DNA from: Dermatophagoides farinae
Taxonomy: Eukaryota > Arthropoda > Arachnida > Sarcoptiformes > Pyroglyphidae
Direction of reading: 5' to 3'
Length of the DNA: 64,000 bases
NCBI RefSeq assembly: GCF_024713945.1
Contig: NW_027461523.1
Coordinates: 1-64,000 of the forward strand
Shown here one piece after another: positions 27,215 to 57,055 of this stretch (within the stretch, counting starts at the first letter, position 1; each line of letters opens with the position of its first letter). Both the position numbers and the translations under genes were made by a program. The notes under the pieces are model-generated. The model did no database searches. It saw nothing but the letters and a program-made list of their open reading frames with translations, and had not been told where the DNA came from.

Positions 27215-27767
27215 ATGGGCGTTCGAAGAGTCAAGAGAAAACCACTTTCTGAAAAAAAATCCTCAATCATTAAACTATCAAAATTAGCTTCTGAACAAGA
27301 TGATATTTTTTTAAAGGTACGAAAATGACTAACAACAATTTTATTAGAAAGCTCTTAGAGAAAAAAAAAATGCTATCAAAAAAAATAAGAGCAGCTTTGG
27401 CCAAGATGAATTGAACTTGTTTTTAAGTATCTTGAATGTTTCAACTAAGTCCGTGAAAACCGAAGATCCGTTTATTACTCATGCTAATCATATATCAGAA
27501 AAAAAAAAAGAATTTATGAATGACTTGAAAAGACGAATAAAAACATTGAGATCGAGAAAATCGAAAATTAATAAGAGTGCCTATAGTGGAAAACAACAGA
27601 TAAAACTTATCAAAAAAGAAATCAAGGAAGCTAGAAAGATGATTAAAAATCCAGAAAATTATTTGTCCGACTATATCGAAGAGATTTCTAACAAAGACAG
27701 TGAAGAATCGCCTAATGATCAAGAAATTTGTTCTGATTCTGAAATTTTATCTGACGAGGACGAATAA
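27215..27767 (+). CDS. Basic coiled-coil protein, two exons
   Basis: A 173-residue Lys/Arg-rich protein encoded by exons 27215-27316 and 27348-27767. The frame ends soon after FLK unless a 31-nt GT-AG intron with a CTAAC branch-like motif is removed, after which it continues in phase as KALREKKNAIKK. The body is a charged helix with Lys/Arg clusters (RRIKTLRSRKSK) and the tail is acidic (DSEILSDEDE). This recalls small nucleolar ribosome-biogenesis factors, but no family motif is recognised and no function is assigned. The ATG at 27215 (MGVRRVKRKP) is the first in frame near the gene. Confidence 0.62.
27317..27347 (+). other. 31-nt spliceosomal intron
   Basis: Starts GTACGA and ends TTATTAG, with a CTAAC branch-point-like motif in the middle. 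Removing it joins two open frames in phase (FLK to KALREK). Confidence 0.8.
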
Positions 27768-27838
27768 CAAAATAATTGTTAAAATTTATATCGCATTTGA
27801 AATTTCTCTTTTTTTTTTTTATAGCAAGCTATACTTGA

Positions 27839-29338
27839 ATGTCTGAATTGACAAGCAGTAGCGATGAATACAATAGCAAAATCAATAACGTATGTGTTTG
27901 TTAAGTTTTATCATTTTAAATGCTTTGTTAGTTATTAAACCAACTTAAACTGGTAATTGACCCTGACTTGCACAAGGATATTATTAGTTTAGGGTTTGTG
28001 AAAAATTTGAAAATAGAACATGGAGATGTATCATTCGACTTGAAACTGACAACCCCAGCTTGTCCATTAAAGGACTGGTTCATCAACACGTGCCAAATGG
28101 TTGTAAAAAAACTCTCTTGGGTCGGCACTGTATCAATTAATATTCTATACAATGAGAGGAAAACGCAAAAAAAAGAAATGTTTGATTTGATCTCGAACAT
28201 TATTTGTGTTAGTTCATGCAAAGGCGGCGTAGGAAAATCTACCTTTGCAGTCAATCTTGCATTCGAAATAAGTGAGTCAAACTGTAAAGTTGGTATTGTG
28301 GATTTAGATATTTATGGGCCAAGTTTTGGCACGCTCCTGCCGTTAAATAAATCGAAAATTCCAGGTCTTATCAAAGCAAAACAGGTTGGTAACGACGGAA
28401 CAACCAAACTCGTGCCGGTTTATTATAATAACGTTGCTATTATGTCTACCGCATTTCTTCTCAATGACAATCAGTTTCTCGGTTATAGAGGCCCGATGGC
28501 TGAAGCATTGGCCATGGAACTAATAACAAGAACAGATTGGGGTGAATTAGACTATTTAATCGTTGATTTGCCTCCGGGAACGGGCGATGTAAATATCACG
28601 GTAATTGAAAATCTCCCAGTTACTGCAGTTATAATTATATCTACGCCGTCACTTTTGGCATTTGAGGACGTAAAAAGAGGCGTTGAATTTTTTGAAAAGC
28701 ATAATGTAAATATAATTGCGATTATTGAAAATATGACGTTAGAGATTTCAGATTACGAGCACAACGCTAATGAAGACATATTACCGATCATTGAAAAGTC
28801 GGTTTATCCATACGCTTACTATTTTAATACTTTACCTTTATGCCAAGAGTTGAGAACGTTCAAGTTTCTAAACCCCGAAACGGGCAGGGTTCTTTTTCCA
28901 TTTAGCCTTGCTTACAAAGGTAAAAATAATCTCGTCAAAAAAAAGTTGTCACTGATTTGTGATAACATTATTCGACAAGTGAGCGTCATCAACAACCCAT
29001 GTCTAGAAGTCGCGGCTTTCGAGATTCAAGACGATTACAATGTGAGAATTGTACTCAAGAACACTGACTACGAAAATGAAGTTTTCTCAATACCAATCAA
29101 GCTTTTAAGATCAATGTGTGAATGTGACGAGTGTAAAAAAAATAATAAAAACACATTTAACAGTAAATTCGCGTTGAACCTGACAATTACAAATATAATA
29201 GATAACTCGCAGTTCGGAATGGTTTTAGAGTTTTCCGATGCTCACGTTAGTTTAATTACATTCAATCAGCTGCTTTCGTACTATCACAAAAACGAAAACA
29301 AGGCAGGTAGCTGTTCTGATAAACAAATCTACTGGTAA
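27839..29338 (+). CDS. HCF101-type Mrp/NBP35 iron-sulfur carrier ATPase, two exons
   Basis: A 485-residue protein from exons 27839-27889 and 27932-29338. Domain order is MIP18/DUF59 (about residues 18-95, with LKLTTPACPLKDW), Mrp/NBP35 P-loop ATPase (deviant Walker A CKGGVGKST at 113-121, DLDIYGPSFGTLLP, YRGPMAEALAMELI, VDLPPGTGDVNIT), and a C-terminal DUF971-like domain with CECDEC. This three-domain layout is that of HCF101, which hands Fe4S4 clusters to target proteins. The first exon encodes only MSELTSSSDEYNSKINN, and splicing restores LVIDPDLHKDI at the start of the DUF59 domain. No transit peptide is visible, which suggests a cytosolic location. Call secure; targets unknown. Confidence 0.92.
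27890..27931 (+). other. 42-nt intron in the HCF101-type gene
   Basis: Starts GTATGT and ends TTGTTAG. Its removal joins the short first exon to the DUF59 domain in phase; without it the frame stops after five further codons. Confidence 0.8.
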
Positions 29339-29347
29339 CTGTAAATC

Positions 29348-29812
29348 TTAGGCATTAAGTTTGAGAATACGCTTTTCAAGCTCGTTGTGACGTAAGTAAG
29401 TGTAAAACGAACAATTCACCAACTCGTCAGCTAAAGTTTGAATGGCACCGAGTACCTGAGTGCAGGCATTGACCGAAATTTTGTTACTGCACAGCTTAGT
29501 GAGCATAGCAACGATAAAAGATATTTGTTCGCTTATTAATATCTCATTGGACTCTTCTGTGCAAACGAACATTATATAAATGTTGTTTTCAAAGTAGTAT
29601 ATTATTCTTTCGTCGATTTCAATGATTTGCTCGGTCTTTTTTTCAACAGCACGGGAAGCTAGCTTTCCCACTAAACTATGTTCAAAGGCAGTTTGATTTT
29701 CTGGCGTGCTGAATTTACTAGAAGTTAATGCAGTTTGCGTATATTTACACGCCAACCGCTGTCCCGCTTGTGTTAAAACCAAAAACGCTTTAAGGCTAAA
29801 TGCTGAACTCAT
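29348..29812 (-). CDS. Coatomer zeta subunit (COPI)
   Basis: A 154-residue longin-fold small adaptor subunit. Signature stretches are FSLKAFLVLTQAGQRLACKY at the start (compare the family's VKAILILDNDGDRLFAKYY), the central IIEIDERIIYYFENNIYIMFVC, and VNACTQVLGAIQTLADELVNCSF near the end, matching the zeta-COP helix before VDGGVI. AP-complex sigma subunits are similar, but the block order fits zeta better. It is part of the COPI coat for retrograde Golgi-to-ER traffic. The stop lies 9 bp from the convergent HCF101-type gene. Confidence 0.75.
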   Translation of the reverse strand: MSSAFSLKAFLVLTQAGQRLACKYTQTALTSSKFSTPENQTAFEHSLVGKLASRAVEKKTEQIIEIDERIIYYFENNIYIMFVCTEESNEILISEQISFIVAMLTKLCSNKISVNACTQVLGAIQTLADELVNCSFYTYLRHNELEKRILKLNA

Positions 29813-29968
29813 TTTTATTCCAAACGCACATCAACTATTTTATAACTGATTAATAAACCAAGCAGTTTAGGCGCTCTAATTAAAATTTATTAAAGATGGA
29901 TTTATTTATGTTAAAATATTATTACTAGATTAAGAAGACATAATATTGTTCTGATCATTTTCCGATTT

Positions 29969-31762
29969 TCACTTAAAAAAACAAAAGCATGAACGTAGCC
30001 AACCTCTTGTGGTTTTTTTAGTATTAGTTGATTCTAATTCATCGGTTAAAATTTGAGGTTTTTCGCTAGTAGCGAGCGTAGCAGGAGCTATTAAGCCTTG
30101 TTTTATTTCAGTTATTTCGATTTTTTCGACGTAACGCTCTTTTTCGATTTCGCTCTCATCAGTCGTGGCGTCATTGCATTGAACTACAGCTTTGGTTTCG
30201 ATGGGTTTTATTTTACTAGCACACAATTTAGTTTCGTTGATTGTTTTTGATTTAGGTTCAGAAGGGACGCTTTCGAGCGTGCTATCTGGTATAGAAGCAA
30301 ATTTGTCAGTTGCAGTATCAGTGGATATGCTAGTCTCGGACTGTTGATCAACCTCAACTTCATTTTTAGTCGCAACGTCAACTGGTCCAGTCACAAAATA
30401 AATATCTTGAGAAATTTCATCATTATATACTGTTTTTATATTTTGACTTTGTTGGCTATCAAAGGATGATCGAGCTTTAGTTTGTTTTATTTGCCTATGC
30501 GTGTCGCCGGTCCATTTCAAGCCTTTTGTCTCTTTGCTAGGAGACAACGTGCACTGACTAACAGCATCAGTCAAAAATGATTTGAATGCCGGCAGTTTGT
30601 TTCCTCCATGCAGCCAGTAGTCAACGCTGGCAGGATCCTGGTAGCTAGGAAAAACTGAGTAGTACTTAGAGCTAACTTTGTTATTTAGATCTACTCTACC
30701 AATCGTGAAGCTAGATACGTTGATTGATCGCGTTTCACTCGTCAATCTATAACAGCGAAGAATTTCATTTTTACTAACATCTAAACCTCTTGACGGAAGA
30801 AAAGCAAACGAAGAAACTTCTCTGTCGAAAACAGCATCTTGTAGTTTGCAGCACGTCTGGTCTTTTGTTTGATACATATAGCATCTTTGGTCTCCTCTGT
30901 TAATCACGGACAAAATTTGTGAGTGTAGATCATAGTTTGTCATCATTACGGTACTGTTCCCTTTTATCTTAGATGTGTATAAAGGTGTTTTCAGGTCACG
31001 AATATCATAGAAATAAACGGTTCTTTGACCTTTTTCGCAAGGGCCAAACGTCATTAGAGCGGACATGTCAATCCGGTTGTGACTAGCGACAGCTTGAGCG
31101 CGGCAAAAGCGATTTGTCGAGTATATAGAATCAGTCTTGACAACGCAAGCTTTGTTGCGGATATCGTAAATAGCTGCCTCTTGCGAGCTGTTCATACCAT
31201 ATATAAGTTTTCCGTCGAAACTCCAGTCAGCATAATACAAGGATTTTGTCACATCGTAAGACAAGCAGTTTACTCCATTGTCTAAATCCCACAATCGAAG
31301 CATTGCATCTTTACTATTTGACAATAGTAAATTGTCGACAGTAGGGTTCCAAGCGATATTTGAAATAGCTTTTGAATTATTGGATACGTCTTCGAACGCA
31401 ATTATAACGTTTTCTATGTTATCACCTGTTTGTATCACTTTAGTGACCATTAACTCACCCGTGTTAGAAGACGACGCGAAAATGTCGTCGTGGAAATACG
31501 AATGCCGGACATCAGATATCCCGTCTCCGTGTAAACAGAAGCTAACGGGTTTTTTACTGTATGTGGCATAAGGATCACTCAAAGGGTAAATTTCTACGAT
31601 TCCTTTTTTTCGTGTTGATGTCACTATGTTCTGGGTTGAAGCTGATATTTCAAACCCTTCCGAGAAATTCGGAGTATTAACATCTTTGATAGTGCTTTTT
31701 AAATCTGCAAAGCGCAGATTTCTGTAAGTTATATGCGTATCAGCTATTGGTATGTCGAACAT
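29969..31762 (-). CDS. Coronin, actin-binding WD-repeat protein
   Basis: A 597-residue protein. A seven-bladed propeller covers about residues 1-340, with WD-type strands such as AISNIAWNPTVDNLLLSNSKDAMLRLWDLDNG and YYADWSFDGKLIYGMNSSQEAAIYDIR. Then comes the coronin-specific DUF1900-like stretch: LPSRGLDVSKNEILRCYRLT (compare PKRGLNVNKCEIARFYKL) and YYSVFPSYQDPASVDYWLHG (compare the family's DIYPDTPG...AEEWL). Residues about 400-580 are a low-complexity linker, and the end reads RGWLRSCFCFFK in place of a clear trimeric coiled coil. Coronins bundle F-actin; in apicomplexans they influence motility and endocytosis. Identity is strong, with an atypical tail. Confidence 0.85.
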   Translation of the reverse strand: MFDIPIADTHITYRNLRFADLKSTIKDVNTPNFSEGFEISASTQNIVTSTRKKGIVEIYPLSDPYATYSKKPVSFCLHGDGISDVRHSYFHDDIFASSSNTGELMVTKVIQTGDNIENVIIAFEDVSNNSKAISNIAWNPTVDNLLLSNSKDAMLRLWDLDNGVNCLSYDVTKSLYYADWSFDGKLIYGMNSSQEAAIYDIRNKACVVKTDSIYSTNRFCRAQAVASHNRIDMSALMTFGPCEKGQRTVYFYDIRDLKTPLYTSKIKGNSTVMMTNYDLHSQILSVINRGDQRCYMYQTKDQTCCKLQDAVFDREVSSFAFLPSRGLDVSKNEILRCYRLTSETRSINVSSFTIGRVDLNNKVSSKYYSVFPSYQDPASVDYWLHGGNKLPAFKSFLTDAVSQCTLSPSKETKGLKWTGDTHRQIKQTKARSSFDSQQSQNIKTVYNDEISQDIYFVTGPVDVATKNEVEVDQQSETSISTDTATDKFASIPDSTLESVPSEPKSKTINETKLCASKIKPIETKAVVQCNDATTDESEIEKERYVEKIEITEIKQGLIAPATLATSEKPQILTDELESTNTKKTTRGWLRSCFCFFK

Positions 31763-31920
31763 GTTTTATTTTTACAACTCTCTTATATTACATGCAAATC
31801 TATTTGTGTTACAGCGTTTTTATGAAATTGTTTTAACTCGTAAATGTACATATAATATTAGTCATGTCTAAACGTTATAGTATCTCGAACGATTTGTTTT
31901 GGACGTTGTTTTTTTATATT

Positions 31921-32709
31921 TCAGTTTAGCAATTCATAGGCTCCTAACAATTCTTTGGTAATAAACAACATGTATTCGGAAGCTGCATTTTTTATTTTTT
32001 CTACATTTGAAATCGAAATTGGATGTTTTTTTTGCAAACAATGCAGTTCGGCGCTCGTTTCAGATTTGTTGAAAATCAAGTCGTGCTCCAGAGGTACGAC
32101 GTGCCTGTGTTTGTATATTCCAACTTCGATGACAAAAACGTTTTCTGAACTTATCATGCCGTCGATTGAATAAAGCGGCACGAGTTTAAGAGGAATTTTG
32201 CCAATCTGATATTGCGCTTCTTTGATTTTTAGTTTTGTACTACTAGCAAGGAATTTTGCCGAGTTGTGGTTTACATGTTTTTTGAATTGTAACAAATCGG
32301 AAACAAACAAGTTTGTTTTTTTCCGTGTTGACGAAATAATGACTTCGTCATGGTCGGATACCACGTTGAGTATCAAACTAGGGTTAATTTTTTTGATAAA
32401 TTTTTTTAGATCAATCACTTGTTTAGAAATAGGGTATACCGTAGCGTAAGGACCTTCAAACCAGTTTAAATGAATATCATCATATTTAGCCGCAGTATAA
32501 GGACAGTAAATACCATTTTCTTCAACCGTCCTTCGTCCCTGAATATTCAGAACTGGCACAACGAACAGTTGGTAGTTTGAAAATTCATTTTTTTTTGGTA
32601 ACGTACAATAAAGTTCGACAAACTTTGTTAAGACTTCTGTCGACAGCAAATCTAGCGTGTTGGCTCCAGCGATATAAAAAATTTTCATGTCAGATTTTGC
32701 ATTACCCAT
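31921..32709 (-). CDS. Degenerate M14 metallocarboxypeptidase-like protein
   Basis: A 262-residue protein that keeps the M14 fold landmarks in order: a strand-helix start (IFYIAGANTLDLLSTEVLTKFVEL), LFVVPVLNIQGR (compare VPVLNPDG), a DIHLNW where M14 enzymes have DLNRNF, PYATVYPISKQV (compare GPxAxSEPET), VVSDHDEVII at the second zinc-ligand strand, and FVIEVG around the catalytic Glu. The first zinc-ligand pair (HxxE) is replaced by ANTLD, so activity is doubtful. The N-terminus MGNAKSD could be N-myristoylated. No signal peptide is seen. This is a remote-homology assignment. Confidence 0.5.
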   Translation of the reverse strand: MGNAKSDMKIFYIAGANTLDLLSTEVLTKFVELYCTLPKKNEFSNYQLFVVPVLNIQGRRTVEENGIYCPYTAAKYDDIHLNWFEGPYATVYPISKQVIDLKKFIKKINPSLILNVVSDHDEVIISSTRKKTNLFVSDLLQFKKHVNHNSAKFLASSTKLKIKEAQYQIGKIPLKLVPLYSIDGMISSENVFVIEVGIYKHRHVVPLEHDLIFNKSETSAELHCLQKKHPISISNVEKIKNAASEYMLFITKELLGAYELLN

Positions 32710-33042
32710 TTGTACATAATTTATACTATCGTAATTATTGAAAATCTAATTATGCAATTTTAAACTTTTATTACATACTAAATTTAGATTAGGACAAGGC
32801 AAATTGTTAATTTTGTTAAACAATAAGGCTATCGAAGAATAAGCAGCTGGGAGGTACATAGACGATTTAAATCTCTTAAGAACCCTGTAATAACATGCTC
32901 ACAAATCTGTGATTTATTAATTATAATTATTAAGACTACTGTATTTAGCAAAAAATAAAAACAAAAAATGCTGGACTAAAAACTATTAGAAGTTACATAT
33001 AAGTAATCTAAGGGTCAAATATTATAAAGCGTCGGCATAACA
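32710..33042. other. Gene-free AT-rich spacer
   Basis: A 333-bp spacer between the upstream end of the M14-like gene and the stop of the HEAT-repeat gene. It holds A/T runs and a moderately GC-richer island near 32825-32905. No long open frame, tRNA cloverleaf or known snRNA motif was found. It must contain the promoter of the M14-like gene. Confidence 0.5.
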
Positions 33043-34722
33043 CTACTCTTCATCGCTGAAAAGTGCAAAAAAAGGGTTGTTTTGTAGTTGTGGATTAGGG
33101 TTTTCAGGTGACTTGATGCGACTATTAGTCAGGACTTGATCATCGAGTTGTGAATCGGACTCAGAAGTTCGTTCCCGCTTTAGATTGGAAAAATTAAACA
33201 TAGCAGTCAACTTTATCGGTTTAATAGTTTGATTCTTAAGATCTGACGAAACAGTATGGAGAAATTGTTCCAGAGAAATGAGCTTGCGGAGAAATGATTC
33301 AGAAGATTTATTTTTTTTGTCTAAGTTACAGAGTTCATTATAAACGCGTTTTGGTGCGTATTTGTCAAATGATTCTTTATCGATGTGATAATACAAAATA
33401 ATATAGTGGTATACGACATGCGAAAGTGCGGCTGAGATGTCAGAGCAATAGTCAAAAGTAACGATGTGCTGTATTAAAAAAAGCATATCGTTAAGAAACT
33501 TCTGTTTAAAGTACGCTTTAAAATTTAGTTGTACGTCGTTTGATGTTAGCAAAATTAAGTCGAAACAGTGTGTATAAGTAAGTTCCGGGCCGATATTTAT
33601 AACTCGCTCAGAATTATTGTTAAGCAAGGCGTGAACAAAACAGAAAAAGATTTTCAAAACCACAAGCGAACTAGTGACAAGGATCATGCTGTTTTCATGG
33701 TCGTTTTGGGAGCTCGAGCGTAAATGTAGAAACAACTCAGATAAGAGGCCAAAACAGCGGTGAATAGTATTGGTTTGAAGACTGCTGTGAGAATCAAAAC
33801 TATCTAGATTGGGTTCTGCGGGAGCTTGTTCTCGCGGTTGCATAAAGGTTGACTTAGAGTAATCGTTGCGCAAGTTTTCCATGATTGCTGAAAATTCAGT
33901 CCATTTTAAATCAATCAAGTTTTCTTCTGCCTTAGTATCTAAACTAGCTTCCACGGTTTTTGAGAATATTTTAATACATTTGTTTATAAGCGAGAAAGCC
34001 GTATCGTTTTTGTTTTTACCTGGAAGCGTATGGCTGTGCGCAAGTTGTTGTCTCGCAATTAGAGGAAGCAAAGGAAAAATGTCAGTAATGAAGTAAAAAC
34101 TTGTAACTGGAAGTTTGATTGTCGTAACTAAATAATGTAAAGTGTCAACAGCTTCGGTGCGGATAGCCGTTGAAACATTCGTCAGTGCATTGCGCAGAAT
34201 ACTCCAAATCTTGTCGGGCTGGTGATATTGAAATTGCGAGCTAGAGTCGCTGCAAATGGTAGTATTGTTGATTGAAGAAATTTTTTTTAAAAGCAGTATG
34301 AGGGTTTTATGGGTAGTTTTTCTTATCTCCTTGTTAGAGTCTAATACAAGTTTATAGAACAAACTCAGGTAAAAATTGTAAAATGGACGTACATCATCGG
34401 GAACTGATTTCAAAAACTCGAATAAATTTCGGATAGCATCGAGCCGTTTTTGCTCGAGTCCGTCTGAGCAATTGACACCGTAAAATAAAATAGGTTTGCC
34501 ATTGTAGAAAAGCTCATCTAGTTGCGTCGAAAGTTGGCTCAAATTCGTGTAAATACCCTCAATTTTGTCGTCGTGCGACTTTATATTGATAGTGCCAACA
34601 GTTGTCGAGCTTTCTATGTCGAATTGGTTATCAGGGATGATTTTACGCAGCTTTTTCATGCGTTTCTTTGTATTTATAGACTCTTGAGGTCTAGTTATTT
34701 TTGGAGCAACCCGTTTTCTCAT
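33043..34722 (-). CDS. HEAT-repeat protein, Ipi1/TEX10-like
   Basis: A 559-residue protein. The N-terminus is basic (RKRVAPKITRPQESINTKKRMKK), then comes a stretch with STTVGTINIKS that resembles the Ipi1/TEX10 segment N-x-T-x-TSFKSKxI, then helical repeats: VRPFYNFYLSLFYKLVLDSNKEIRKTTHKTLILLL and AIRTEAVDTLHYLVTTIK. Ipi1 belongs to the Rix1 complex, which with Rea1 matures pre-60S ribosomes. The tail ends in an acidic NPFFALFSDEE. Assignment is by motif order and is tentative; another nucleolar HEAT protein remains possible. Confidence 0.45.
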   Translation of the reverse strand: MRKRVAPKITRPQESINTKKRMKKLRKIIPDNQFDIESSTTVGTINIKSHDDKIEGIYTNLSQLSTQLDELFYNGKPILFYGVNCSDGLEQKRLDAIRNLFEFLKSVPDDVRPFYNFYLSLFYKLVLDSNKEIRKTTHKTLILLLKKISSINNTTICSDSSSQFQYHQPDKIWSILRNALTNVSTAIRTEAVDTLHYLVTTIKLPVTSFYFITDIFPLLPLIARQQLAHSHTLPGKNKNDTAFSLINKCIKIFSKTVEASLDTKAEENLIDLKWTEFSAIMENLRNDYSKSTFMQPREQAPAEPNLDSFDSHSSLQTNTIHRCFGLLSELFLHLRSSSQNDHENSMILVTSSLVVLKIFFCFVHALLNNNSERVINIGPELTYTHCFDLILLTSNDVQLNFKAYFKQKFLNDMLFLIQHIVTFDYCSDISAALSHVVYHYIILYYHIDKESFDKYAPKRVYNELCNLDKKNKSSESFLRKLISLEQFLHTVSSDLKNQTIKPIKLTAMFNFSNLKRERTSESDSQLDDQVLTNSRIKSPENPNPQLQNNPFFALFSDEE

Positions 34723-35183
34723 AGCGCTAGTCAGTTTAAGAGATGTTACATCTACGCCAAACCCTAAATTATTTTGCGTATCTCATATAAAAATAAAGAG
34801 GGTTCAAAAAAAATTCTATTTATTTATTTGTATTTTGGCATCATATACAACAAATTGAGTAATATTCGCTTTTAAATAAGAATCAAGCTAGCAGATCGTT
34901 TTCAGTAGTGATCCAAGTTCGAGTTACCTCAGTAATGTGATTTCAACGTAAATTAGATCCTTTCACATCACCTTAATATAAAGCTAAAAATATTTTTGAT
35001 TAATATTTTCTTTATTGTAAATTAAATCTATCGTGCTTACATGTAACACAGCTATAATAACATCTTATTGTTCGCCCATTGGACAAATTTGTTTTATTTT
35101 AGGATTTGTGACCGCAAATTCAATCTTATGTGCGTACCTCGAAACTGCGTTGATAGTAATTATTTCGTATAAAATCGTCCCAT
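34723..35183. other. Divergent promoter region, no gene seen
   Basis: A 461-bp spacer between two divergent ATGs, the longest gap in the window. It contains poly-A/T tracts and mixed sequence at 34880-34960, but no convincing open frame. A GTTCGAGTT stretch near 34914 resembles a tRNA T-loop, but no cloverleaf can be built around it. Confidence 0.5.
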
Positions 35184-36817: not shown

Positions 36818-38585
36818 ATGTTATCGCAGTTTATGTCTTCTGTCTGGAAGGCTTTGAAGCTTAATACGGCAACTTTGTCGGGTTGCAGTGATGTAATCGT
36901 CATTAAAAAACAGGACGGATCTTTAGACGTAAGTTTGTCTGAGTATCATGTTTCAGTCGACAGCCTTCCACGTTCGATTTGGAAGAACTAAACTGCTGTG
37001 GCCTGAGGCTCAGCCAGTGAAAATTCGAATTAACGGAAAGGAAGTTCCAGTAAAAATGCAGCTTAGCGCTGCTGGAGAAGGCTTTTTTAAAAAAGAGGCG
37101 GAAGTGGAAAAAGTTGCGGATTTTTCTGAAGAAATAGCCAATGACGAATCAATGTCACCCAATTTTTTAGGCTCATGCAGTGGTTGTAATTTTGAAAGCG
37201 TTGCTACTAAAATCCTTGATGAAGATAGATCCGTTGCCGAAGAAAAACACTTGAATAATGACTACAAAACTTGCTGGTCGCGTGCCTTTAGTTCGAATAA
37301 TGAAGAGTTTTTGCGACAGCTCTCGATCAATCAGAACGATTTTGGATATGCTTTGGGCTATTCCAGCATAGAAATATCAATGTGTGCCAATTTAATAATT
37401 GGCAAGAAAGATTCTCGCGAAGCAGACAATGAAATATTTGAGAAAAACCTAATTGCCTCAGAGGAACTGGAAAAAGATCCAACTTTATGGTATAACCCTT
37501 ATGTAATTTTTCGCTTCGACAAAGAAGGTCCTTTCATTCCTAGCTGGGTTGCGCTGCCCATAATAACTTCCTTGTTCCTTTTTAAAAAACCAATTTCGCC
37601 AGAAGCGTTTGTGAAACTGTTATCGGCGAACGTCACATGTAAAATAAACGAACCTTTACTGAATGAAATATGTAACGGCTCTAATTTTCACGATCTTTTG
37701 AACGAAAACCAATTAAATCATTCGTTTAAGAACAAAAAGAACAAAATAGAAAGTTCAACAGTTACAAACGGGCTGATAGCTGAAAACATTATTGAATCAG
37801 TGCTCGACTCAGCAATGCCTTTGAAACCGACGCATGTTCAGCTTAAGCAAATGAATTTGAAGGACGGAGCTAACGTCGTTGAATACATTGTCAATTCACA
37901 AGTGTTAGGCGTTCGGCATTTGATTGGAACAATTTATCTTTGGAGCGACGATACAAAAATCATTGTGTCAGACATAGACGGTACTATCACGAAAAGTGAC
38001 GTTTGGGGACAGGTTTTACCTATTTTGGGTAAAGATTGGTCTCACAGAGGCGTGGCTAATTTATTTTCTCGCTGCAGTAAACATGGATATGAAATAGTTT
38101 ATATTACTGCTCGGGCTATTGGGCAAGCCAATACAACTAGGGATTATTTGTTTAGTCTGCAACAAGACGAAAAATATTGCTTACCTGACGGACCTTTGTT
38201 TTTATCTCCAGACAGACTGTTTGATTCATTTAAAAGAGAAGTAATCGATCGTAAATCATTTATGTTTAAAATCGCAGTGTTAAACGATATTAAAAAAACT
38301 TTCCCTGCAAATAAGAACCCGTTTGTAGCTGGTTTTGGAAATAAACATACAGATTACGTGGCGTACAAAAATGCGGGAATTCCAAATGACAAAATTTACA
38401 TAATTGATTCAAAAGGTGTAGTTAAACATATGGATAGCGGTAACAGTAAAACATACGGTGAACTGGCTGAAAACATTGATGAAATATTTCCTAGTCGAAA
38501 AGAATTTTTTGCCGGAGATTCTCAAAATAAAAAAAATAGCGAAAAAAAAAGACTTTCGCATTTTAGAGCAAAACTAAAGTCATAA
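36818..38585 (+). CDS. Lipin (phosphatidate phosphatase), two exons
   Basis: A 579-residue lipin from exons 36818-36928 and 36957-38585. The N-terminal lipin domain (MLSQFMSSVWKALK, LSGCSDVIVIKKQDGSLD, then STAFHVRFGRTKLL) is only complete when a 28-nt intron is removed. The C-terminal LNS2/HAD domain has the catalytic DIDGT at 376-380 (DxDGT), SDVWGQVLPILGKDWSHRGVANLF and FGNKHTDYVAYKNAGIP. Lipins convert phosphatidate to diacylglycerol on ER and nuclear membranes, feeding phospholipid and triacylglycerol synthesis. The linker is shorter than in animal lipins. CDP-diacylglycerol synthase and WS/DGAT lie about 13-15 kb away. Confidence 0.96.
36929..36956 (+). other. 28-nt intron in lipin
   Basis: Starts GTAAGTTT and ends GTTTCAG. 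Splicing joins GSLD to STAFHVRFG in phase, restoring the conserved lipin N-terminal block. Confidence 0.9.
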
Positions 38586-44426: not shown

Positions 44427-45299
44427 ATGAATTACTTACGGCTGTATCAGTTAGTAGTTTTGGCTTTATCGAGACTGGCTCTGCAAGAAAACTCTACTGA
44501 AAATTTATTTAACAGTAACCGCCACGTTGTTATCAACTACGGCAACTCCTATGCACCGCATATATACGATCTTAATTTATTTGACGACGATGACTGTGAA
44601 CTTGATGACTATAAAGAAGTTGTAAATAACGGCTGGTGTGATTCCAAGTTCTTTAAAGATAAATGCACTGTGGACAAGAAAGACTGTGAAGGCTGGTGCC
44701 GTCCTGAATGCAAACCAGGCTGGGTTGGAGACGGAGTTTGCGATCTGTCTTGCTTCAACGAAGAATGCAACTGGGACGGCGGCGATTGCGACGTGCAATT
44801 CCAACGTACCTCTTTAAAAACTAAAAGTGCAAACACCTGTAAATGTCCTTTGATCAAACTAGGAGACGGGGTGTGTGATTTTGAATGCAATAATCCTGAA
44901 TGTGATTTTGATAAAGGAGATTGTTCTGAGTTTTGTAGCAAGAACTGTCGATACAGTCAACTGGGCAACGGCACTTGCGACACGAGTTGCTTCACTGAGC
45001 AATGTGGATTCGACAAAGGCGACTGCAAAGAATGTGCTCCTGGATGTCGACCAGACCGCATCGGGAACGGCCTTTGCGATTTGGAATGTATGAACGACAA
45101 ATGTTTTTGGGATATGGGTGATTGCGCGGGCTTCTGTAAAATTCACCCTTTTGACTATTCAGCCATACCATTCGTTTATAAAGCTTGCAGAAAAGAGTGG
45201 ATCTCTGATGGTTTTTGTGATTGCGCTTGCTTTAACGAAGAATGCGATTGGGACGGCCACGATTGTGACGCCTTTGACTGTTCTTTCATGTCAAACTGA
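44427..45299 (+). CDS. Secreted LNR (Lin12/Notch) repeat protein
   Basis: A 290-residue secreted protein. A signal peptide (NYLRLYQLVVLALSRLALQ) is followed from about residue 45 by five to six Lin12/Notch repeats. Examples are CKPGWVGDGVCDLSCFNEECNWDGGDC, CRYSQLGNGTCDTSCFTEQCGFDKGDC, and CRKEWISDGFCDCACFNEECDWDGHDC: each has the LNR Cys spacing and the acidic calcium-binding D/N-x-D-G-x-D-C ending. No transmembrane or GPI signal follows. In Notch these repeats form a calcium-stabilised compact module; secreted multi-LNR proteins are known in protists including apicomplexans. The exact role is unknown. It converges with the sugar transporter, only 12 bp between stops. Confidence 0.9.
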   Translation: MNYLRLYQLVVLALSRLALQENSTENLFNSNRHVVINYGNSYAPHIYDLNLFDDDDCELDDYKEVVNNGWCDSKFFKDKCTVDKKDCEGWCRPECKPGWVGDGVCDLSCFNEECNWDGGDCDVQFQRTSLKTKSANTCKCPLIKLGDGVCDFECNNPECDFDKGDCSEFCSKNCRYSQLGNGTCDTSCFTEQCGFDKGDCKECAPGCRPDRIGNGLCDLECMNDKCFWDMGDCAGFCKIHPFDYSAIPFVYKACRKEWISDGFCDCACFNEECDWDGHDCDAFDCSFMSN

Positions 45300-46247: not shown

Positions 46248-46343
46248 TGTGGGTACGGGAAAAATTTTATAATATTAAAAATTTCATCTAACATAAATTT
46301 AAATATAATTTATTTTTTGAATTGTATAAAATCAAATTGAATT

Positions 46344-47574: not shown

Positions 47575-47714
47575 ATTGCTTTGCGTAGATAACGCAGTGT
47601 AGATCTGCTTTTTTGTAATTTTGCTTTTTTCATAATTATGCTTTGATTATATTATTTTAGTTATATTTCCTGGACAAGTTGTAGTGTTTACGAACTAAAC
47701 CAGTCATTTGCATA

Positions 47715-49227: not shown

Positions 49228-49386
49228 TAATGTGTAATTAACATGGTATTTTGTGACAAATTTATTATTCAATTATAAATCAAGCAGACGGAACTCGAGT
49301 CGGAAAGTACGACGTACGTTTTAGACTATTTTATAAATATATTCAAGAATTAATAAACGAAAATGTACGAACATTTCTTGACCACG

Positions 49387-50043
49387 CTAAGCCAATTCGT
49401 TAAGTGTTGAAGATATTAAAGGAAAACTGCTGGCACGAGCGACGTTTGCAATACCCCAGGTGAAACGATTATCAAAAAGCTGTATATTCATTACCACGTC
49501 GAGTTGCAGTAATATGTTGGTAATGAAGGACGTGGCAGACTCTGTCAAGTTATTTTCTGCGTCCATGCTGGAATCGTCAATACTAATTAGCAGCACGAGT
49601 TTCGTGTTAGAAAGGTTGATTTCACAAAGTAACTGAAAAATCAAACATTTTGCATCCGTTAATTCTTCGTCTGACGCTTGTAGCGGTACCAAAAAAAAGA
49701 TACAACCGATGTGCAGATTCAACAGGCCCAGTATCATCTTCACCTGGATCTTGTGATCACCTGAAGTGTCCCACACGTTAATCACTGAAGAGTTAATTTT
49801 GATCGTTTGGCACACAATGGATAACTCATCAGGCGGTGGAAACTCAGGATACCGCTCGACTTTGTTTTGGAAAATCAAATTTTTCCATAAAAGAGTTTTT
49901 CCAGAGCGCGGAAGACCAGATATTATGACGTTGGTAGTTATTTTTAGGTTTTGAAGATCTTGCGTAGAATCATACATTTCATTTTCCGCGAGCGCTGTTG
50001 GAACGGCGGGTTTATCAGTGATCCTACAACATATCAAGCCCAT
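49387..50043 (-). CDS. Atypical Ras-like GTPase with predicted dual N-terminal acylation
   Basis: A 218-residue small GTPase-like protein. It starts MGLICC, an N-myristoylation site (Gly2) with two adjacent Cys for palmitoylation. The G1 P-loop is GLPRSGKT (43-50) and the G3 box is WDTSGD (Asp92, Gly95). Where the G4 NKxD box should be, the sequence is LLISIDDSS, so the guanine-specifying Asn and Lys are lost. The switch region is short and Pro-rich (EFPPPDEL). It is likely a divergent Arl/Rab-type membrane protein with altered or absent GTP specificity. The partner protein is unknown. Confidence 0.72.
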   Translation of the reverse strand: MGLICCRITDKPAVPTALAENEMYDSTQDLQNLKITTNVIISGLPRSGKTLLWKNLIFQNKVERYPEFPPPDELSIVCQTIKINSSVINVWDTSGDHKIQVKMILGLLNLHIGCIFFLVPLQASDEELTDAKCLIFQLLCEINLSNTKLVLLISIDDSSMDAENNLTESATSFITNILLQLDVVMNIQLFDNRFTWGIANVARASSFPLISSTLNELA

Positions 50044-50090
50044 TCAGAGCAAAATTATTGACGCACAAGATGGAATTGCTGATTTGTAGT

Positions 50091-51348
50091 CTATAGTTCC
50101 GCGTTTAAGCCAATTTGAGTGAAAAACGCAGACTTTTCGTTATTATCGAGCAAGTTTATTTGTCTTAGAAGAGAAGGAATCGAGGGTGCACTCGTAATCG
50201 ATCTGACGTATAACCATGTAAACATAGCCATGATCAACTGGCAGTCGAAACGGTCGGAATAACCTCCGTGACCTGGAAACGTGTTACTATAGTCTTTAAT
50301 TTTGAAATATCGCTTTATGGCACTAGATAAAAATCCGCCCAACGGTGCGCCGAACGACGCGAATAATCCGAAAATAATAAAATCAACCCAGGCATGACGA
50401 TAAAACAAATTCAAACCCAAAATTTTAATAGGCTGCAGCGCAAATCTCGAACTCACTTTACAGTCCTGCGTAACGTCGTGGAACAGCGGTATTGCTGGAG
50501 AAAATCCCAAATCCGCACATGTAAACAATTTGAATCGCTGAAGCACTTCACCAACCAGCAGAGTGAAAATCGGTGTCAATACCGCAGCACCTAAAAATCC
50601 TTCAATAGTCTTGTTGGGTGAAACGTTTATCAAAGATGTTTTTCCATACTGCCTTCCGACTAAGTACGCAAAAGTATCGTTCAGTGCTACACTCGCAATA
50701 CTAGTGGTAAACCAAATCAACCCTTTATCAATTGTTTTGATGTGTGAGATCGACTGGTAGACCACAGTAAGGCAAATAATAAAAATGAAAAACAGCGTCT
50801 TTAATTCTTTTTTTAACTGGTTTGTACGTATTTTAAATATCGATCGCAATAGACCTAACGTTATCAGCAGGTATTGCAGTACCGCCAAATAGTTGTCTAA
50901 ACGCGGTAATATGCGAATGAAAAATTGCAATAATTTATTGTCCACGTTCAGATTCTGGTACTTCGTATCCGGAATGCGAGACAACTTATCAACTATATAC
51001 GGCCGAAGTGTGGCGAACGCTGTGAATAACAACCAGTAAGCAGCTTGGAAGAACGGAAAGTCGTGATCTCGTAGCGTCACCCGCAAAACTTCAAAATACG
51101 TTAGCGTGCATAAGATTAATACGGTTAGAGCACAGTAAAAATGCCCAAGAGCTAACACAAACATAGTAGCAATCACCAAAAACAAAGATGTACTACAACA
51201 ATATTTCTCATTTTTCTTACATGAATCGTTTCATAAAACTAGAACTTTTCGTTGACTTTGATTTGATGTTTGAAAACGAAGTTGTTTTTTTTCCATTCTC
51301 TTGGGCTAGATCGCTCTTTTGTTTGCTTTCATTACTTTTCCTACTCAT
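50091..51348 (-). CDS. CDP-diacylglycerol synthase, two exons
   Basis: A 409-residue phosphatidate cytidylyltransferase from exons 51348-51221 and 51192-50091. The C-terminal signature SSAIKRYFKIKDYSNTFPGHGGYSDRFD matches the family pattern S-x-x-KR-x4-KD-x4-PGHGG-x2-DR-x-D. About eight transmembrane helices precede and surround it. The enzyme makes CDP-diacylglycerol from phosphatidate and CTP for phosphatidylinositol and cardiolipin. Exon 1 adds a Ser/Lys-rich cytosolic tail (MSRKSNESKQKSD...) and joins as FMKRF|ITSLFLVIATMFVLALGHFY, restoring the conserved first membrane helix; the second exon alone has no fitting ATG. The split is by a 28-nt intron. Confidence 0.95.
51193..51220 (-). other. 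28-nt intron in CDP-DAG synthase
   Basis: On the minus strand it starts GTAAGAA and ends GTTGTAG. Its removal joins MKRF to ITSLFLV in phase and restores the conserved first membrane helix. Confidence 0.88.
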
Positions 51349-51453
51349 TTTATTCGAAAAGAAATTAATAAATATTAATGATATTCAATCTTCAAAACAT
51401 TCTTATTTATTATACCTGTGAAGTTACAGAATAGACTTCTTATTGGGCTCATG

Positions 51454-53496
51454 TCAGTCTATGACCACACCTTCCATGTCGTATTTGGACAACGTATTTG
51501 CTAATATTTTCAATTTTTTTTGAACCATCATTCCTATAATCGATGGAGCCAATAAACTAATATTTCTAAATATCCATTTGTCCATTTCAGATCCGTCAAA
51601 GCATTTCACTAGTTGGTTCGATAACTCTTCAATTTCTGTCTCACTCATTATCGTCATGATTTGCATATTGTTTCCCAGAGAAATCCAAGACGTGCTCACT
51701 GAACAAGTTTCGTGTGGGGCTGGCCAAAACATCAATTTGTTTATTCGACAATTAGCAAAGTTCCCTGTGATAAAAGGCGCGGCGACATTAGTAGAACTGA
51801 ACTCGGTATGTGAATACATTGCTTTGTAGATTTTCTTTGAAAGACTTACCGGAAGAGCTGCTACAATTCCAAGCGAAAGTAAATAAACAACCATTCCCAT
51901 GTTTCGCTTTTTACATTTGTTTAAACTTTGTTTTATCTGCAGTAACTGTTTGCGAAACAAAGAGGAATCGCTAAAACTGATTTTCGACGTTTCAAAGCCA
52001 CTTGTTTCAGGAATTTGTAAATTCACCGACACCATTGACGTTTGATTATCGAAACATGTTGGGGCTGCAGTCCTACACATAAACGGAATAATAATTGCGC
52101 TATTCGCAAATTCTTGCGGTTTAATCGGATTGGTGTCCATAGAAAATGAATTTTCCATGGACATCACATCCATAGACGTTGTTCTTTCTTTGTACTGGCA
52201 ATTCAATATTATAGATTCAGTCGAACTACGAACTACGTTTTCTTTGTCCACATAATTTTCGTTTAAAGGAATTTCATCATTAGTTTTATACTTTTGGTTG
52301 GCGAGTTCGTACAAAGTACTTTTGATCTTATCTACAGATTTAAACTCTGCGTAAACGTGGCTTAGTAAAAATAATAAAATGTCATTCACCGTAAACTTAT
52401 TTTTGAATTTTGATCCATCGTGTTTTTTCTCTGAAAATAACCGGATAATTTTTTTAATCATTAATAGGTCGATTTCATTGTAGTCACTTAAGTAACGTTT
52501 ACCAAAAATTATATTATTCTTATCTATCAGTTGATTAGTAACAAAAGACTTTCTATCAGAACTTTTCAAATAATACTCCAACAACACGCCTAGGCCAACA
52601 ACAGATGTGTAGATTGCTTGTGTAAAATAATACAGTATTCTCAGTCCTAAATTTACATTTTTTTGATATTTTAAAGGTAGAATTGAACGATCCAACGGAA
52701 TATCAGCGAGTCTATCCGATGTAATTGTCATAAGGCTCGACCCGTCACAAATCGTATGATGTATTTTAAATAAAATATAAATTTTTGTGGGCAAGATGAT
52801 ATAATATACTCGCCAAAGCGGTTTGTCTTTTGGTAGTTTAAGCAAGTATACTTCTTGAATTTTTTGGGACAATTTTCGTTCGTCATCTAAATCAATTGTT
52901 ATTATATGGTTCGAAATGTCAAACTTTGCTCCGAGATTAATCCAAGTTGTGCGTCCGTACTTCTTTTTTATTACAGAAGTAAATTTTGAATCAAAAACAA
53001 TCCATCGTTTCCATAAATGATACTTGAAAGAACTAAAAGATAATGTTTTCTCTACTTCGTAACCCATTGTGATAAATAATGGTGTTTCTTCCATTAAGAA
53101 CAACAAATCATTGGCTGTAACTCTCTTGTCAGGTGGAAAGTAAGATAAATATTCACAAAACTGCGCTAAAGTACCTTCACGGTAGAAATATTTTAGTTTC
53201 ATGAGATAAAAAATTATCGTTACGTTTACCGTCTCATATGCTTTGAAATCATTCCTTAAATCATTCCCATATAACTTTTCTGGTTTATTTGGTTTAATTC
53301 TATTATCAACGTCTTTTTTATTTATAACTTTTATCCACTCTTCAAATCTTTCTATTATCGCTAATTGATTAAAAATTAGTAAAAACAAATAATCCACTAA
53401 CGCTAATACCATAATTACGCAAGCTACAATTGGAGAAATCAAACAGCATAAAAACTTTAAAACCCAGATGAAGACATTATAATAATTAACACTCAT
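51454..53496 (-). CDS. Wax ester synthase/diacylglycerol acyltransferase (WS/DGAT)
   Basis: A 680-residue enzyme of the bifunctional WS/DGAT family, which makes wax esters or triacylglycerol from acyl-CoA. The catalytic HHxxxDG is present as HHTICDG (246-252). The N-terminus has one or two hydrophobic helices (YYNVFIWVLKFLCCLISPIVACVIMV), an anchor to ER or lipid droplets. The C-terminal DUF1298-like region contains ITGNFANCRINKLMFWPAPHETCSVSTSWIS and a closing DGSEMD segment. The first ATG is at 53496 (MSVNYYNVF). A Ser/Thr-rich insert lies around residues 430-470. In an apicomplexan this would store lipid in resistant stages, though that is inference. Confidence 0.9.
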   Translation of the reverse strand: MSVNYYNVFIWVLKFLCCLISPIVACVIMVLALVDYLFLLIFNQLAIIERFEEWIKVINKKDVDNRIKPNKPEKLYGNDLRNDFKAYETVNVTIIFYLMKLKYFYREGTLAQFCEYLSYFPPDKRVTANDLLFLMEETPLFITMGYEVEKTLSFSSFKYHLWKRWIVFDSKFTSVIKKKYGRTTWINLGAKFDISNHIITIDLDDERKLSQKIQEVYLLKLPKDKPLWRVYYIILPTKIYILFKIHHTICDGSSLMTITSDRLADIPLDRSILPLKYQKNVNLGLRILYYFTQAIYTSVVGLGVLLEYYLKSSDRKSFVTNQLIDKNNIIFGKRYLSDYNEIDLLMIKKIIRLFSEKKHDGSKFKNKFTVNDILLFLLSHVYAEFKSVDKIKSTLYELANQKYKTNDEIPLNENYVDKENVVRSSTESIILNCQYKERTTSMDVMSMENSFSMDTNPIKPQEFANSAIIIPFMCRTAAPTCFDNQTSMVSVNLQIPETSGFETSKISFSDSSLFRKQLLQIKQSLNKCKKRNMGMVVYLLSLGIVAALPVSLSKKIYKAMYSHTEFSSTNVAAPFITGNFANCRINKLMFWPAPHETCSVSTSWISLGNNMQIMTIMSETEIEELSNQLVKCFDGSEMDKWIFRNISLLAPSIIGMMVQKKLKILANTLSKYDMEGVVID

Positions 53497-53796
53497 TTTA
53501 CGTTGTATAATTCTGATATTAACCAATGTCTAATTTTTCTTGCAGTAACTCGAGTCGAATCAAGTTCTTATGATGTGTACTGGGTATATTGTAATATAAT
53601 AAGTCTTTAATCTTTACTACTTGCTAAAATTTTAAAATACGCGCGTACTAGATGTATGTTAGTTTTGAATAAGGCGCATACGATCGTGTTATGAATTTTT
53701 AGAAAAATTTATTTAGTGACTGTTGCTACTTTCTTAAGGCTTCATTGCATTGTATTAATCTAGTCTGACGCTTAATATTTTCATATTATCTGTATT
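53497..53796. other. Gene-free spacer
   Basis: A 300-bp AT-rich spacer between WS/DGAT and MUS81 on the same (minus) strand. It includes the promoter of WS/DGAT and the 3' end of MUS81. No open frame, tRNA or repeat is recognised. Confidence 0.5.
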
Positions 53797-54969
53797 TTAG
53801 TAAGAACAAAGATAAGTTATTAAAATCTCAATCGAATTTTTTTTGTAGCTACAAATAATTTTTAATTCGTTGCTGAGCTGATTTTTATAGTGATAATTGT
53901 CTAGATCAACAACTAAAGCGTAAAAATTTCTATAATTTTTGGAAATTAGCAAAGCTAATTCGCTATTTATTTTTGGAATCATTCTTGTCAAAAACAAAAA
54001 TAAGTCTTTTGCAGATTGTGTTGATTTTTTTTTGCATAAACTATCAAATTCTCTTATAGGCAAAATATTCAATGCTGTTTTTTTTCGGTTAAAGATCATG
54101 TTTATGTGAGTATGAATTGCACCAACGAGCTTTGAAGTAAATTCAATATTTTTTGAAACTAATAAATAAGTAGATGGATTTACCGCAGTAGAAACCATTA
54201 CAGATCTTATCATAGCTGCATTAGATCCTGCGGGTAAAGGACATTGTTCACACAGCAGTATGGAATGTTGGAATTCCTTAAGAACTTCATTATCGTGAAA
54301 AAACGTTTTAATTCTTGTGGATTGATCGTGTAATCTGCCGTCAATAACGCTCTGTTGTAAATCAAAATAAGTTTTTCGTTCTATTATCGTAGGAATTATA
54401 TAGGTATCATGAATGACTTCTTCGACTGACTCTCTTATGTTGTCACTTCTGCGTCCAATTTGATAAATATTCCGCAATTTGTAAATTTTCACATAAGCCC
54501 AAACGAAATCTCCCAAGGTTATCTGTTGGATTAAATATTCATCCTTGGGCAATAAATCTGTGATTTTGTCATTATTTGTCTTTTCACGGAAATCTACTAA
54601 TATTTTAATTTTTTCCTCTATTGGCTCAATTTGAAAACTGTCAACAAGTTTTTTTGTAGTTTTCGAAACGGACTTATCAGATTTTTTCTCTGTTAAATCA
54701 GCGTGAAGAATTTCGTTTAATTTATTCAAAAGTATTTTAAGATCATTATAATCAATGTCTTGTTGTTCACATCGTTCCTGAGAAAGTTCAAAAATCAGTT
54801 TTTTTACAGTAGCTCCAGAACCTTTGAGTGGAATATCATAATTTTTTTTTGTAATAGTAAGTGGATAAAGCAATAAACCAGAAGGGGTTAAAAAGGTATT
54901 TCTATATCCTCTATGTTTTAAAGTTGAAATAATTTTTTTATAAAGCAGTTCGTTACTTTTATTTCGCAT
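53797..54969 (-). CDS. MUS81: MUS81 structure-specific endonuclease subunit
   Basis: A 390-residue XPF/ERCC4-family nuclease. The nuclease motif IIERKTYFDLQQSVIDGRLHDQSTRIK has the catalytic ERKxxxD at residues 197-203, with KILVDFREK and ITLGDFVWAYVKI upstream, as in MUS81. With its partner EME1/MMS4 it cuts replication forks and Holliday-type junctions. The N-terminal 120 residues are basic and could hold the HhH/winged-helix region; a C-terminal helix-hairpin-helix is weak (IPKINSELALLISKNY). Length is shorter than the human protein (551), so the N-terminal part is reduced. Confidence 0.88.
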   Translation of the reverse strand: MRNKSNELLYKKIISTLKHRGYRNTFLTPSGLLLYPLTITKKNYDIPLKGSGATVKKLIFELSQERCEQQDIDYNDLKILLNKLNEILHADLTEKKSDKSVSKTTKKLVDSFQIEPIEEKIKILVDFREKTNNDKITDLLPKDEYLIQQITLGDFVWAYVKIYKLRNIYQIGRRSDNIRESVEEVIHDTYIIPTIIERKTYFDLQQSVIDGRLHDQSTRIKTFFHDNEVLKEFQHSILLCEQCPLPAGSNAAMIRSVMVSTAVNPSTYLLVSKNIEFTSKLVGAIHTHINMIFNRKKTALNILPIREFDSLCKKKSTQSAKDLFLFLTRMIPKINSELALLISKNYRNFYALVVDLDNYHYKNQLSNELKIICSYKKNSIEILITYLCSY

Positions 54970-55160
54970 AGAAATTTAATATTCTAAGTAGAGAATCCGA
55001 TAGTCATAAAAGATGTTAAGAAAGATCACTATATTACCTCTAAGTTTCTTATATCATATTATATAAATCTTATCAACTTAAATAAATATTAGTATTATTT
55101 TATTAATTTTGAGAAAGAAGAAAATCATTACGTCTAATTTCAATGCAGATAACGAAGTAA

Positions 55161-55506
55161 ATGTCGATTTATTGTAAGTTTTAGAAACACAATATCTATA
55201 GTATACGGAGTACCCATTTGTGGGCAACCAGTAAACACATGCATTGGTTTACTTTGTCAAAAATGCAGTGGTAAATGTCCTATATGTGGTTCTTATGTTC
55301 ATCCAACAACTATTGTGCATATATGCAAAGATTGCAACGAAGCTCTATATGGTGAAAGATGTATTTTATGCGCAAGTTCTGCCAATACATCTGCTTATTA
55401 TTGCAAACAATGTACACTTTTGGGTAGAGATAGAGATGGGTGTCCAAGATTATTTTTTCGCAAAGAACTACATTCAAATTACATGACCAACGACAATTTA
55501 CAATAA
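55161..55506 (+). CDS. PHF5A: PHF5A/Rds3, SF3b splicing factor subunit, two exons
   Basis: A 105-residue zinc-knuckle protein from exons 55161-55173 and 55202-55506. The protein reads GVPICGQPVNTCIGLLCQKCSGKCPICGSYV, then ICKDCNEALYGERCILC, then AYYCKQCTLLGRDRDGCPRLF. These match PHF5A ([27 protein letters not shown], then ICDECNYGSYQGRCVICGG, then [20 protein letters not shown]) with conserved Cys spacing; human length is 110. PHF5A is the SF3b scaffold that grips SF3B1 and the branch-point adenosine in U2 snRNP. The first exon is only 13 nt (MSIY plus one base), followed by a 28-nt intron. Confidence 0.9.
55174..55201 (+). other. 28-nt intron in PHF5A
   Basis: Starts GTAAGTTTT and ends ATCTATAG. 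Removing it joins a 13-nt first exon to the PHF5A body in phase and provides an ATG. Confidence 0.82.
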
Positions 55507-55600
55507 AAATAATCTGGTCATTTTTTAACTACGTATTTTCATTTAAAACAACGGTTACTAAATCATAACGACGATATTATTCTAATTATTTGATAAAATT

Positions 55601-57055
55601 TTAAATGTAAGTGCTAGTTGTGTGTTGTGTGGTGATTAATTTTTCTTCCATGTCTTGTTTCAAGCTCCAGTCTTTGTCAGTTAGGGATTCCAAATAGCAT
55701 GTAATTTTAGCTCCATAAAAATAATACCAAATCATATTGACAAAAATCGACGAAATTCCAAAAATACAAATAGACACTTGAACTGGCAACACGATCAAAT
55801 CCACTAATTTTAGCACAACTATTGGCGGCCACTTCAATCCTAAATTTGCAAAAGTATTGAAAAGCGTCATATAACTTCCTCCTATTATCTCATCAGATAC
55901 GGATGCAAAATAGCTAATAGTAGAGATAAATATTGCATCTTGTGGGATGTTGTTGCAAACATTAGAAATCAAATAGGCAGCCATTTGAATTTTATATGAT
56001 GTTCTAAAGAAATAAATTACTTGAAATCCTATGATACTTATAAAAGTTGAGATAAGTTTGGATATAAAAGCTATACGCAAAATTTTCATACTAGTCATTT
56101 TTACGCCAATTATTTTCGCGAGATAGGAACTCGTAAAAATACTAAGAATGAATGAAAAAAGTACACCAGTTGCTATAATAGAACCTGGCATACCAATTTC
56201 TGTGCATTTTAAAACGTATATTGCATCTAATATGCTCGAACCCAATCGCAGCGTCAAGAGAAATGGAATTGTTGTAGTCATGCATTTTAGTTTTAGTGAC
56301 TTCAATAGCAGTAAATAAGAAGTTTTCAAGGAGTTTTTATTTTGTCTTCGCTCAGAAATCGTAAGTACCGCAATAAACGTGATTATAATCGTCATAACAC
56401 TAGCTATATATAATATTGTGTCTTGAGTAACTTCAAAATTTGGAAAGTACAATTTTATTAATGACGATTTCATTTTTGGATGAAATGACAATAGTGAAAA
56501 ATTTACGAGATAGTATCCAATATTTTGACCAATGGTGTTACAAGTTGCAGCGTGTCTATCATATATTTAACATCAAAAAACTTACTTTTTATACTCTTCT
56601 GGAAGCATTTCAATTGACCAGCCGTCAACAGTAATATCTTGTGTTGCCATGAGAAAATATAGAACTGTGTAATAGATTGTCAACATTTTTATGTTCGGTT
56701 GCAAACCTAGCTCTCCTGACCACTTTAGAGGCATCTTCGATACAGCTCCAAAATACATCAACAACGCAGCTATTATCTGCACAGAAATAAACCAAGTTTT
56801 TCTGCGATAAAATGGTTTGATGTACGTACTATCAACGATCGGCGCCCATAAAACTTTAAGTGAAAATGGAAGCGAAGTTAATGAAAATATAGAAAGTTCT
56901 GAATAGGATACGTCACATTGTTTCATAATTATTATCATTACACTAGAAATCCCGATAGGCACGGCTTGAAGCAAATAAATGATAATTAAAACAACCATTT
57001 TGAATGAGATATTACCCTCATGGCTTTTTTTAATTTTTCGTACGATTACCTCCAT
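55601..57055 (-). CDS. Acetyl-CoA transporter (SLC33A1-like), two exons
   Basis: A 474-residue, roughly 11-12-helix transporter from exons 57055-56586 and 56555-55601. Exon 1 carries YLLQAVPIGISSVMIIIM, SLPFSLKVLWAPIVDSTYIKPFYRRKTWF and ATQDITVDGWSIEMLPEEY. The join gives KKHAATCNTIGQNIGYYLVNF, which matches the SLC33A1 block YASTCNSVGQTAGYFLGN. Exon 2 includes IIGGSYMTLFNTFANLGLKWPPIVVLKLVD, matching GGTYMTLLNTVSNLGGNWP. SLC33A1 carries cytosolic acetyl-CoA into ER/Golgi lumen for O-acetylation of glycans. A 30-nt intron separates the exons. Confidence 0.93.
56556..56585 (-). other. 30-nt intron in the acetyl-CoA transporter
   Basis: On the minus strand it starts GTAAGTTTT and ends TATGATAG. 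Removal restores the conserved transporter block in phase. Confidence 0.88.

Follow-up and report, generated by a model that had tools for sequence, protein, structure and literature searches.

The window analysed here, the first 64,000 nucleotides (nt) of contig NW_027461523.1 (C20:1-64000; the contig, C20, has 281,835 bases) in a Dermatophagoides farinae assembly of 22 contigs and 62.4 Mb, contains six short segments that, judging from their sequence, are almost certainly real introns. It is very probable that they are ordinary spliceosomal introns of the U2 type, shrunk to near-minimal length in the compact, intron-poor genome of an apicomplexan, and the major spliceosome is by far the likeliest agent of their removal. 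The segments had been recognised in an original prediction, whose coordinates and sequences were found to be letter-perfect. They comprise a 31-nt intron at 27317..27347 (+; GTACG..TTAG) in a gene without a known family (27215-27767), a 42-nt intron at 27890..27931 (+; GTATG..TTAG) in the gene of a NUBPL-like Fe-S P-loop NTPase (27839-29338), three 28-nt introns at 36929..36956 (+; GTAAG..TCAG) in a lipin gene (36818-38585), at 51193..51220 (-; GTAAG..GTAG) in a CDP-diacylglycerol synthase gene (50091-51348) and at 55174..55201 (+; GTAAG..ATAG) in the PHF5A gene (55161-55506), and a 30-nt intron at 56556..56585 (-; GTAAG..ATAG) in the gene of an acetyl-CoA transporter, Acatn (55601-57055). As had been described, all six begin with GT and end with AG, and four start with GTAAG. 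Removal of the segment rescues the open reading frame (ORF) in every case: from the same start codon, the unspliced products have 37, 21, 57, 43, 7 and 157 amino acids (aa) in coordinate order, the spliced ones 173, 485, 579, 409, 105 and 474. The junctions fall at codons 34, 17, 37, 42.7, 4.3 and 156.7, which agrees with the placement of five of the six near the 5' end of their genes.

Protein homology across the junctions varies among the six genes. It had been claimed that conserved protein blocks are broken unless the segments are removed, and this holds for lipin, Acatn and, barely, the CDP-diacylglycerol synthase (CdsA), the three genes in which the protein-family alignment contains the junction; homology does not show it for the genes interrupted at 27317 and 27890 or for PHF5A. 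Lipin is the clearest case, where the Lipin_N match increases from 51.0 bits (profile positions 39-92) to 93.9 bits (11-92) upon splicing and runs across the junction. Acatn matches PF13000 with 206.1 bits, the best stretch (residues 20-227) including the junction at 156.7, while the CTP_transf_1 match of the CDP-diacylglycerol synthase increases from 166.1 to 171.7 bits (+5.6), with an alignment that reaches about three residues upstream of the junction. For the NUBPL-like protein, the FeS_assembly_P match increases from 44.9 to 60.8 bits upon splicing, a gain of 15.9 bits obtained because the TTG-started ORF had omitted exon 2 residues; exon 1 is without homology support, since the match starts two residues downstream of the junction. 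PHF5A homology also begins past the junction, and the gain in its Pfam match is just 2.4 bits. The N-terminus of spliced PHF5A matches a second copy on contig C2 in length, residue 10 being aligned to residue 10 without gaps. In these last two genes, splicing provides an ATG that would otherwise be missing: the exon 2 frame of the NUBPL-like gene opens at the acceptor and has its first ATG 165 nt further on, and in PHF5A the first ATG of the exon 2 frame lies 281 nt after the acceptor. For the 27317 intron, the reading frame is the sole support.

Further introns have been found outside the window. A 29-nt intron in Rpb7 and a 33-nt intron with a GTACG donor in eL14 have junctions inside the alignments to the respective solved structures, and the junction of a 29-nt intron in the primase large subunit lies within PF04104. 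In two CCT genes, with introns of 31 and 27 nt, homology starts 7 and 12 residues past the junction, and in a DEAD-box helicase with a 27-nt intron (junction at 11) it starts at residue 16-20. A frame break is present in the CCT gene near C20:130407.

The association of GTAAG with this length range has been assessed by a scan of C20:1-200000 and 42,756 bases of contigs C14, C16, C17 and C19, about 243 kb in total. Every five-letter word was treated as a donor for segments of 18-60 nt ending in [CT]AG, and a segment was counted when its removal fused an open frame starting with ATG to a second one of 80 codons or more and read-through met a stop soon; the expectation was derived from all five-letter words. 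GTAAG gave 16 matches at 26-31 nt where 1.43 were expected; no other word with 50 or more occurrences had so high a rate per occurrence. AAAAT exceeds it in raw count at this length (18 vs 16), yet it occurs 2874 times as compared to 327. Outside the window, GTAAG had 12 matches against 1.13 expected and ranked first of the 1008 words that were this frequent, in a test that is not fully independent, the 26-31 nt bin having been set after the lengths in C20:1-200000 were known. The 42,756 bases fetched later constitute a cleaner, independent test because the bin was chosen beforehand; here GTAAG had 6 matches, one of them likely false, against 0.25 expected, and ranked first of the 928 words with 20 or more occurrences. 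A control with wrong acceptors in C20:1-200000 points in the same direction: [CT]GA, [CT]AC and [CT]TG yielded 10, 11 and 10 GTAAG matches and [CT]AG 12, of which 1, 1, 1 and 10, respectively, were 26-31 nt long. Above 60 nt there was no excess of GTAAG (16 matches vs 17.1 expected), and an earlier scan demanding long ORFs on both sides showed little signal, because most introns sit near the start codon.

A distinct class of short introns, three of them with exactly 28 nt, had been proposed. The class itself is borne out: for GTAAG donors, lengths concentrate in a narrow hump between 26 and 31 nt, which holds 16 of the 22 GTAAG matches in the 18-60 nt scan, with none at 18-25 nt. The exact length is not: among 18 pooled GTAAG candidates, mainly picked for the 26-31 nt range (two come from other scan designs), there are two of 26 nt, four of 27, four of 28, five of 29, two of 30 and one of 31, so that 27, 28 and 29 nt are about equally common, 17 of the 18 span 26-30 nt and no spike is seen. 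The pool still contains a likely false candidate, L031 8520, and a weak one at C20:123409. With respect to position, the junction falls no later than codon 66 in 17 of 19 introns, in a set that was hand-picked and drawn with a 5' scan design favouring early junctions. The mirror-image 3' scan gave four GTAAG matches of 26-31 nt where 1.27 were expected (rank 43 of 1016). When at least 15 codons were required on the right, four matches stood against an expectation of 0.44 (rank 5). Three of the four also appear in the 5' scan. A bias toward the 5' end is likely, with these figures not measuring it cleanly. Intron-poor genomes typically show such a bias.

In the 18 pooled candidates, the donor is commonly extended by a T at +6 (13/18), which gives a consensus near GTAAGT. 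The share of T is 64% at positions -4 to -7, as compared to 32% across the remaining interior. Adenine is commonest at -12 (12/18) and -13 (13/18); closer to the acceptor it occupies -6 and -7 in 4/18 each and -8 in 9/18, with no fixed position. Neither a motif search nor canonical branch words exceeded the level of shuffled sequences. In the mechanism suggested by these features, a strong 5' site, GTAAG usually followed by T, would be paired with a 3' site made of a short T-rich stretch, often TTTTAG, and the donor would lie some 15-20 nt from the branch. We infer from sequence features that the segments are actually spliced, that the A-rich interior probably contains the branch adenine, about 8-13 nt before the acceptor, and that length is set by deletion pressure acting against a floor imposed by the spliceosome. 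If any of the six window introns were retained, the protein would be broken. In human extract, splicing of the MINX substrate was abolished when 46 nt separated the donor from the branch site (PMC6692369); with introns of about 28 nt, the spliceosome here must therefore tolerate much less. Among spliceosome components, the parasite contigs discussed below carry Prp8, whose PROCN domain lies on C14 in a single open frame of 2341 aa (Prp8 is also found on C7), and PHF5A in the window. That PHF5A, an SF3b subunit, is among the interrupted genes had been remarked upon and looks like a coincidence.

Introns of this kind have a published precedent. The original prediction pointed to very short introns in the marine gregarine Porospora, for which a class of about 25-30 bp with a mode of 28 bp has indeed been described (PMC9250747). 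In Porospora cf. gigantea these small introns have a median of 28 bp [27-30], represent 71-72% of introns, possess their own donor and acceptor consensus and show strong conservation of an A located 6 bp before the acceptor, in a genome that is 84% coding with a GC content of 54% (PMC9250747). The introns reported here closely resemble that short-intron class of a lobster parasite. The resemblance extends to length (26-31 nt) and to compactness, since 85% of C20:1-200000 lies in summed ATG-started ORFs of at least 100 aa (partial overlaps allowed); in contrast, GC content is 35% here and a fixed A at -6 has not been found. A gregarine affiliation, which we infer from intron length and compactness, is plausible. 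Within the portions of the gregarine literature at hand, intron statistics were found just for Porospora (PMC9250747), and a GC content of 27% is given for Ophryocystis elektroscirrha (PMC10210345).

This precedent raises the possibility of a two-class system as in Porospora, in which recognition of GTAAG introns of 26-31 nt would differ from that of longer introns carrying other donors. The proportion of matches at 26-31 nt is indeed 16/22 for GTAAG compared to 0/9 for GTATG and 1/7 for GTACG, and the small introns of Porospora possess distinctive donor and acceptor patterns (PMC9250747). Nonetheless, introns without GTAAG are few and several are only candidates, words such as GTTAG (4/22), GTATA (4/21) and GTAAA (3/19) resemble the background, a continuum from 26 to 42 nt would fit equally well, and the fixed adenine of Porospora is not seen here. 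Two classes are thus a doubtful proposition. Equally tentative is the suggestion that a second, low-GC apicomplexan lineage carries a 26-31 nt class without Porospora's fixed branch adenine; if true, it would mean that selection or the spliceosome holds length constant and not branch position, and that splicing at 26-31 nt tolerates a mobile branch point.

Other lineages have reached comparable or smaller sizes. Paramecium bursaria has U2-dependent introns with a median of about 24 nt, of which 39,715 have been annotated (PMC12862383); the introns studied here are similarly short, but sparse and mostly 5'-proximal. Mikrocytid introns have 16-17 nt and a highly conserved sequence (PMC10245619); the narrow length class and reduced parasite genome are shared, whereas a length of 26-31 nt and a loose interior are not. 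The same source lists introns of 15-16 bp in heterotrich ciliates and 18-21 bp in chlorarachniophyte nucleomorphs, likewise near-minimal and clearly shorter than those considered here (PMC10245619). In view of these 15-21 nt introns, the earlier statement that the window introns are close to the physical limit of a spliceosome was too strong. Stentor, whose introns are tiny, is recorded as lacking Slu7, Prp18 and Cdc40 (PMC9505925).

Several observations weigh against ordinary U2-type introns in a parasite genome. The adenine column at -13 is borderline, 3.5% of shuffles reaching 13/18, and the best five-letter word was matched in 17 of 19 introns, a count equalled or exceeded in 48 of 60 shuffled sets. 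Some scan matches are chance: the candidate at L031 8520-8548 overlaps a further candidate gene encoded by the other strand, and a GTATG candidate at C20:151254 was rejected because the ORF around it carries an NMD3 domain. The product of the 27317 gene has no convincing family in a Pfam search, with two weak matches below cut-off. Searches for spliceosomal RNAs located U2 only on C6 and U6 only on C3 and C10, with none on the small contigs, and the RED_N domain was likewise matched only on C6. In human cells, it is mainly short introns that require RED (PMC6692369). Its detection only on C6 says little, because the parasite sequence is probably incomplete.

An alternative, in which the segments stem from errors in assembly or sequencing, or from decay of the genes into pseudogenes, with GT..AG ends arising by chance, draws on the evidence being DNA only and on the lack of family support at 27317. 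Frame breaks of that origin should show no preference for a particular donor word or length range; GTAAG ranks first both outside the window and in the newly fetched contigs, and the products otherwise hold conserved domains. This makes error or decay very improbable, and splicing of near-minimal U2-type introns a far better account.

The apicomplexan part of the lineage originally proposed is backed by three kinds of marker. A CERLI1-like PH domain protein is encoded at C20:138542-139879 (+; 98.2 bits), and to our knowledge the CERLI1 family is restricted to apicomplexans. In Plasmodium falciparum, PfCERLI1 is a conserved rhoptry-associated protein (PMC7075938). An alveolin (IMCp) domain is found on C14 with 34.2 bits, and AP2 domains occur above cut-off on C14, C16 and C19 and more weakly, below cut-off, on C11; as a control, IMCp and AP2 each match one of 14 bacterial or archaeal genomes. 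Contigs C14 to C22 therefore seem to represent a partial apicomplexan genome, probably of a cobiont or parasite, the markers being present only on C14, C16, C19 and C20. Intact CCT or proteasome frames also occur on C17 and C21, while C15, C18 and C22 were matched by none of the searches. The best solved-structure match of S-adenosylhomocysteine hydrolase (SAHH) is 1v8b, which we take to be from P. falciparum; V-ATPase C, eL14, Rpb7, CDC48 and proteasome alpha-2 give no lineage support because their best solved relatives are, we assume, not apicomplexan. A universal primer pattern for ribosomal RNA matched only C1, C4, C5 and C8. In C20:1-200000, ARAGORN predicted no tRNA under its bacterial code setting, and no Rfam family reached the gathering score.

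The assembly holds two PHF5A genes, in the window and on C2, which are 49% identical over 79 aa; such divergence is unusual for the highly conserved PHF5A. The alignment of the window copy to the C2 copy ends short of the C-terminus. The C2 protein presumably resembles that of animals and, judging by this gene alone, the assembly is probably mainly animal. That the introns belong to the animal host, with no parasite present, would accord with the animal-like PHF5A on C2 and with U2 and U6 being found only on larger contigs, but is the least probable explanation of all, given the divergence of the two PHF5A genes, the CERLI1-like PH domain on the same contig as the introns, and the alveolin and AP2 domains on C14, C16 and C19.

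An additional short-intron lineage helps to ask which spliceosomal parts permit introns of about 28 nt. In practical terms, gene prediction with an ordinary lower limit on intron size would cut short the N-termini of parasite genes like these, and contigs of parasite origin within animal assemblies would need to be flagged.

Some further features of the window have been noted. A candidate 33-nt intron at 32746..32778 (-; GTATG..TTAG), proposed from ORF rescue only, would interrupt a gene at 31921-32859 whose product matched no Pfam family. A 499-aa cysteine-rich protein encoded at 25572-27071 (-) has only a weak cEGF match and, in our estimation, resembles oocyst-wall type proteins. Finally, a 290-aa protein encoded at 44427-45299 (+) contains five LNR (Notch) stretches.

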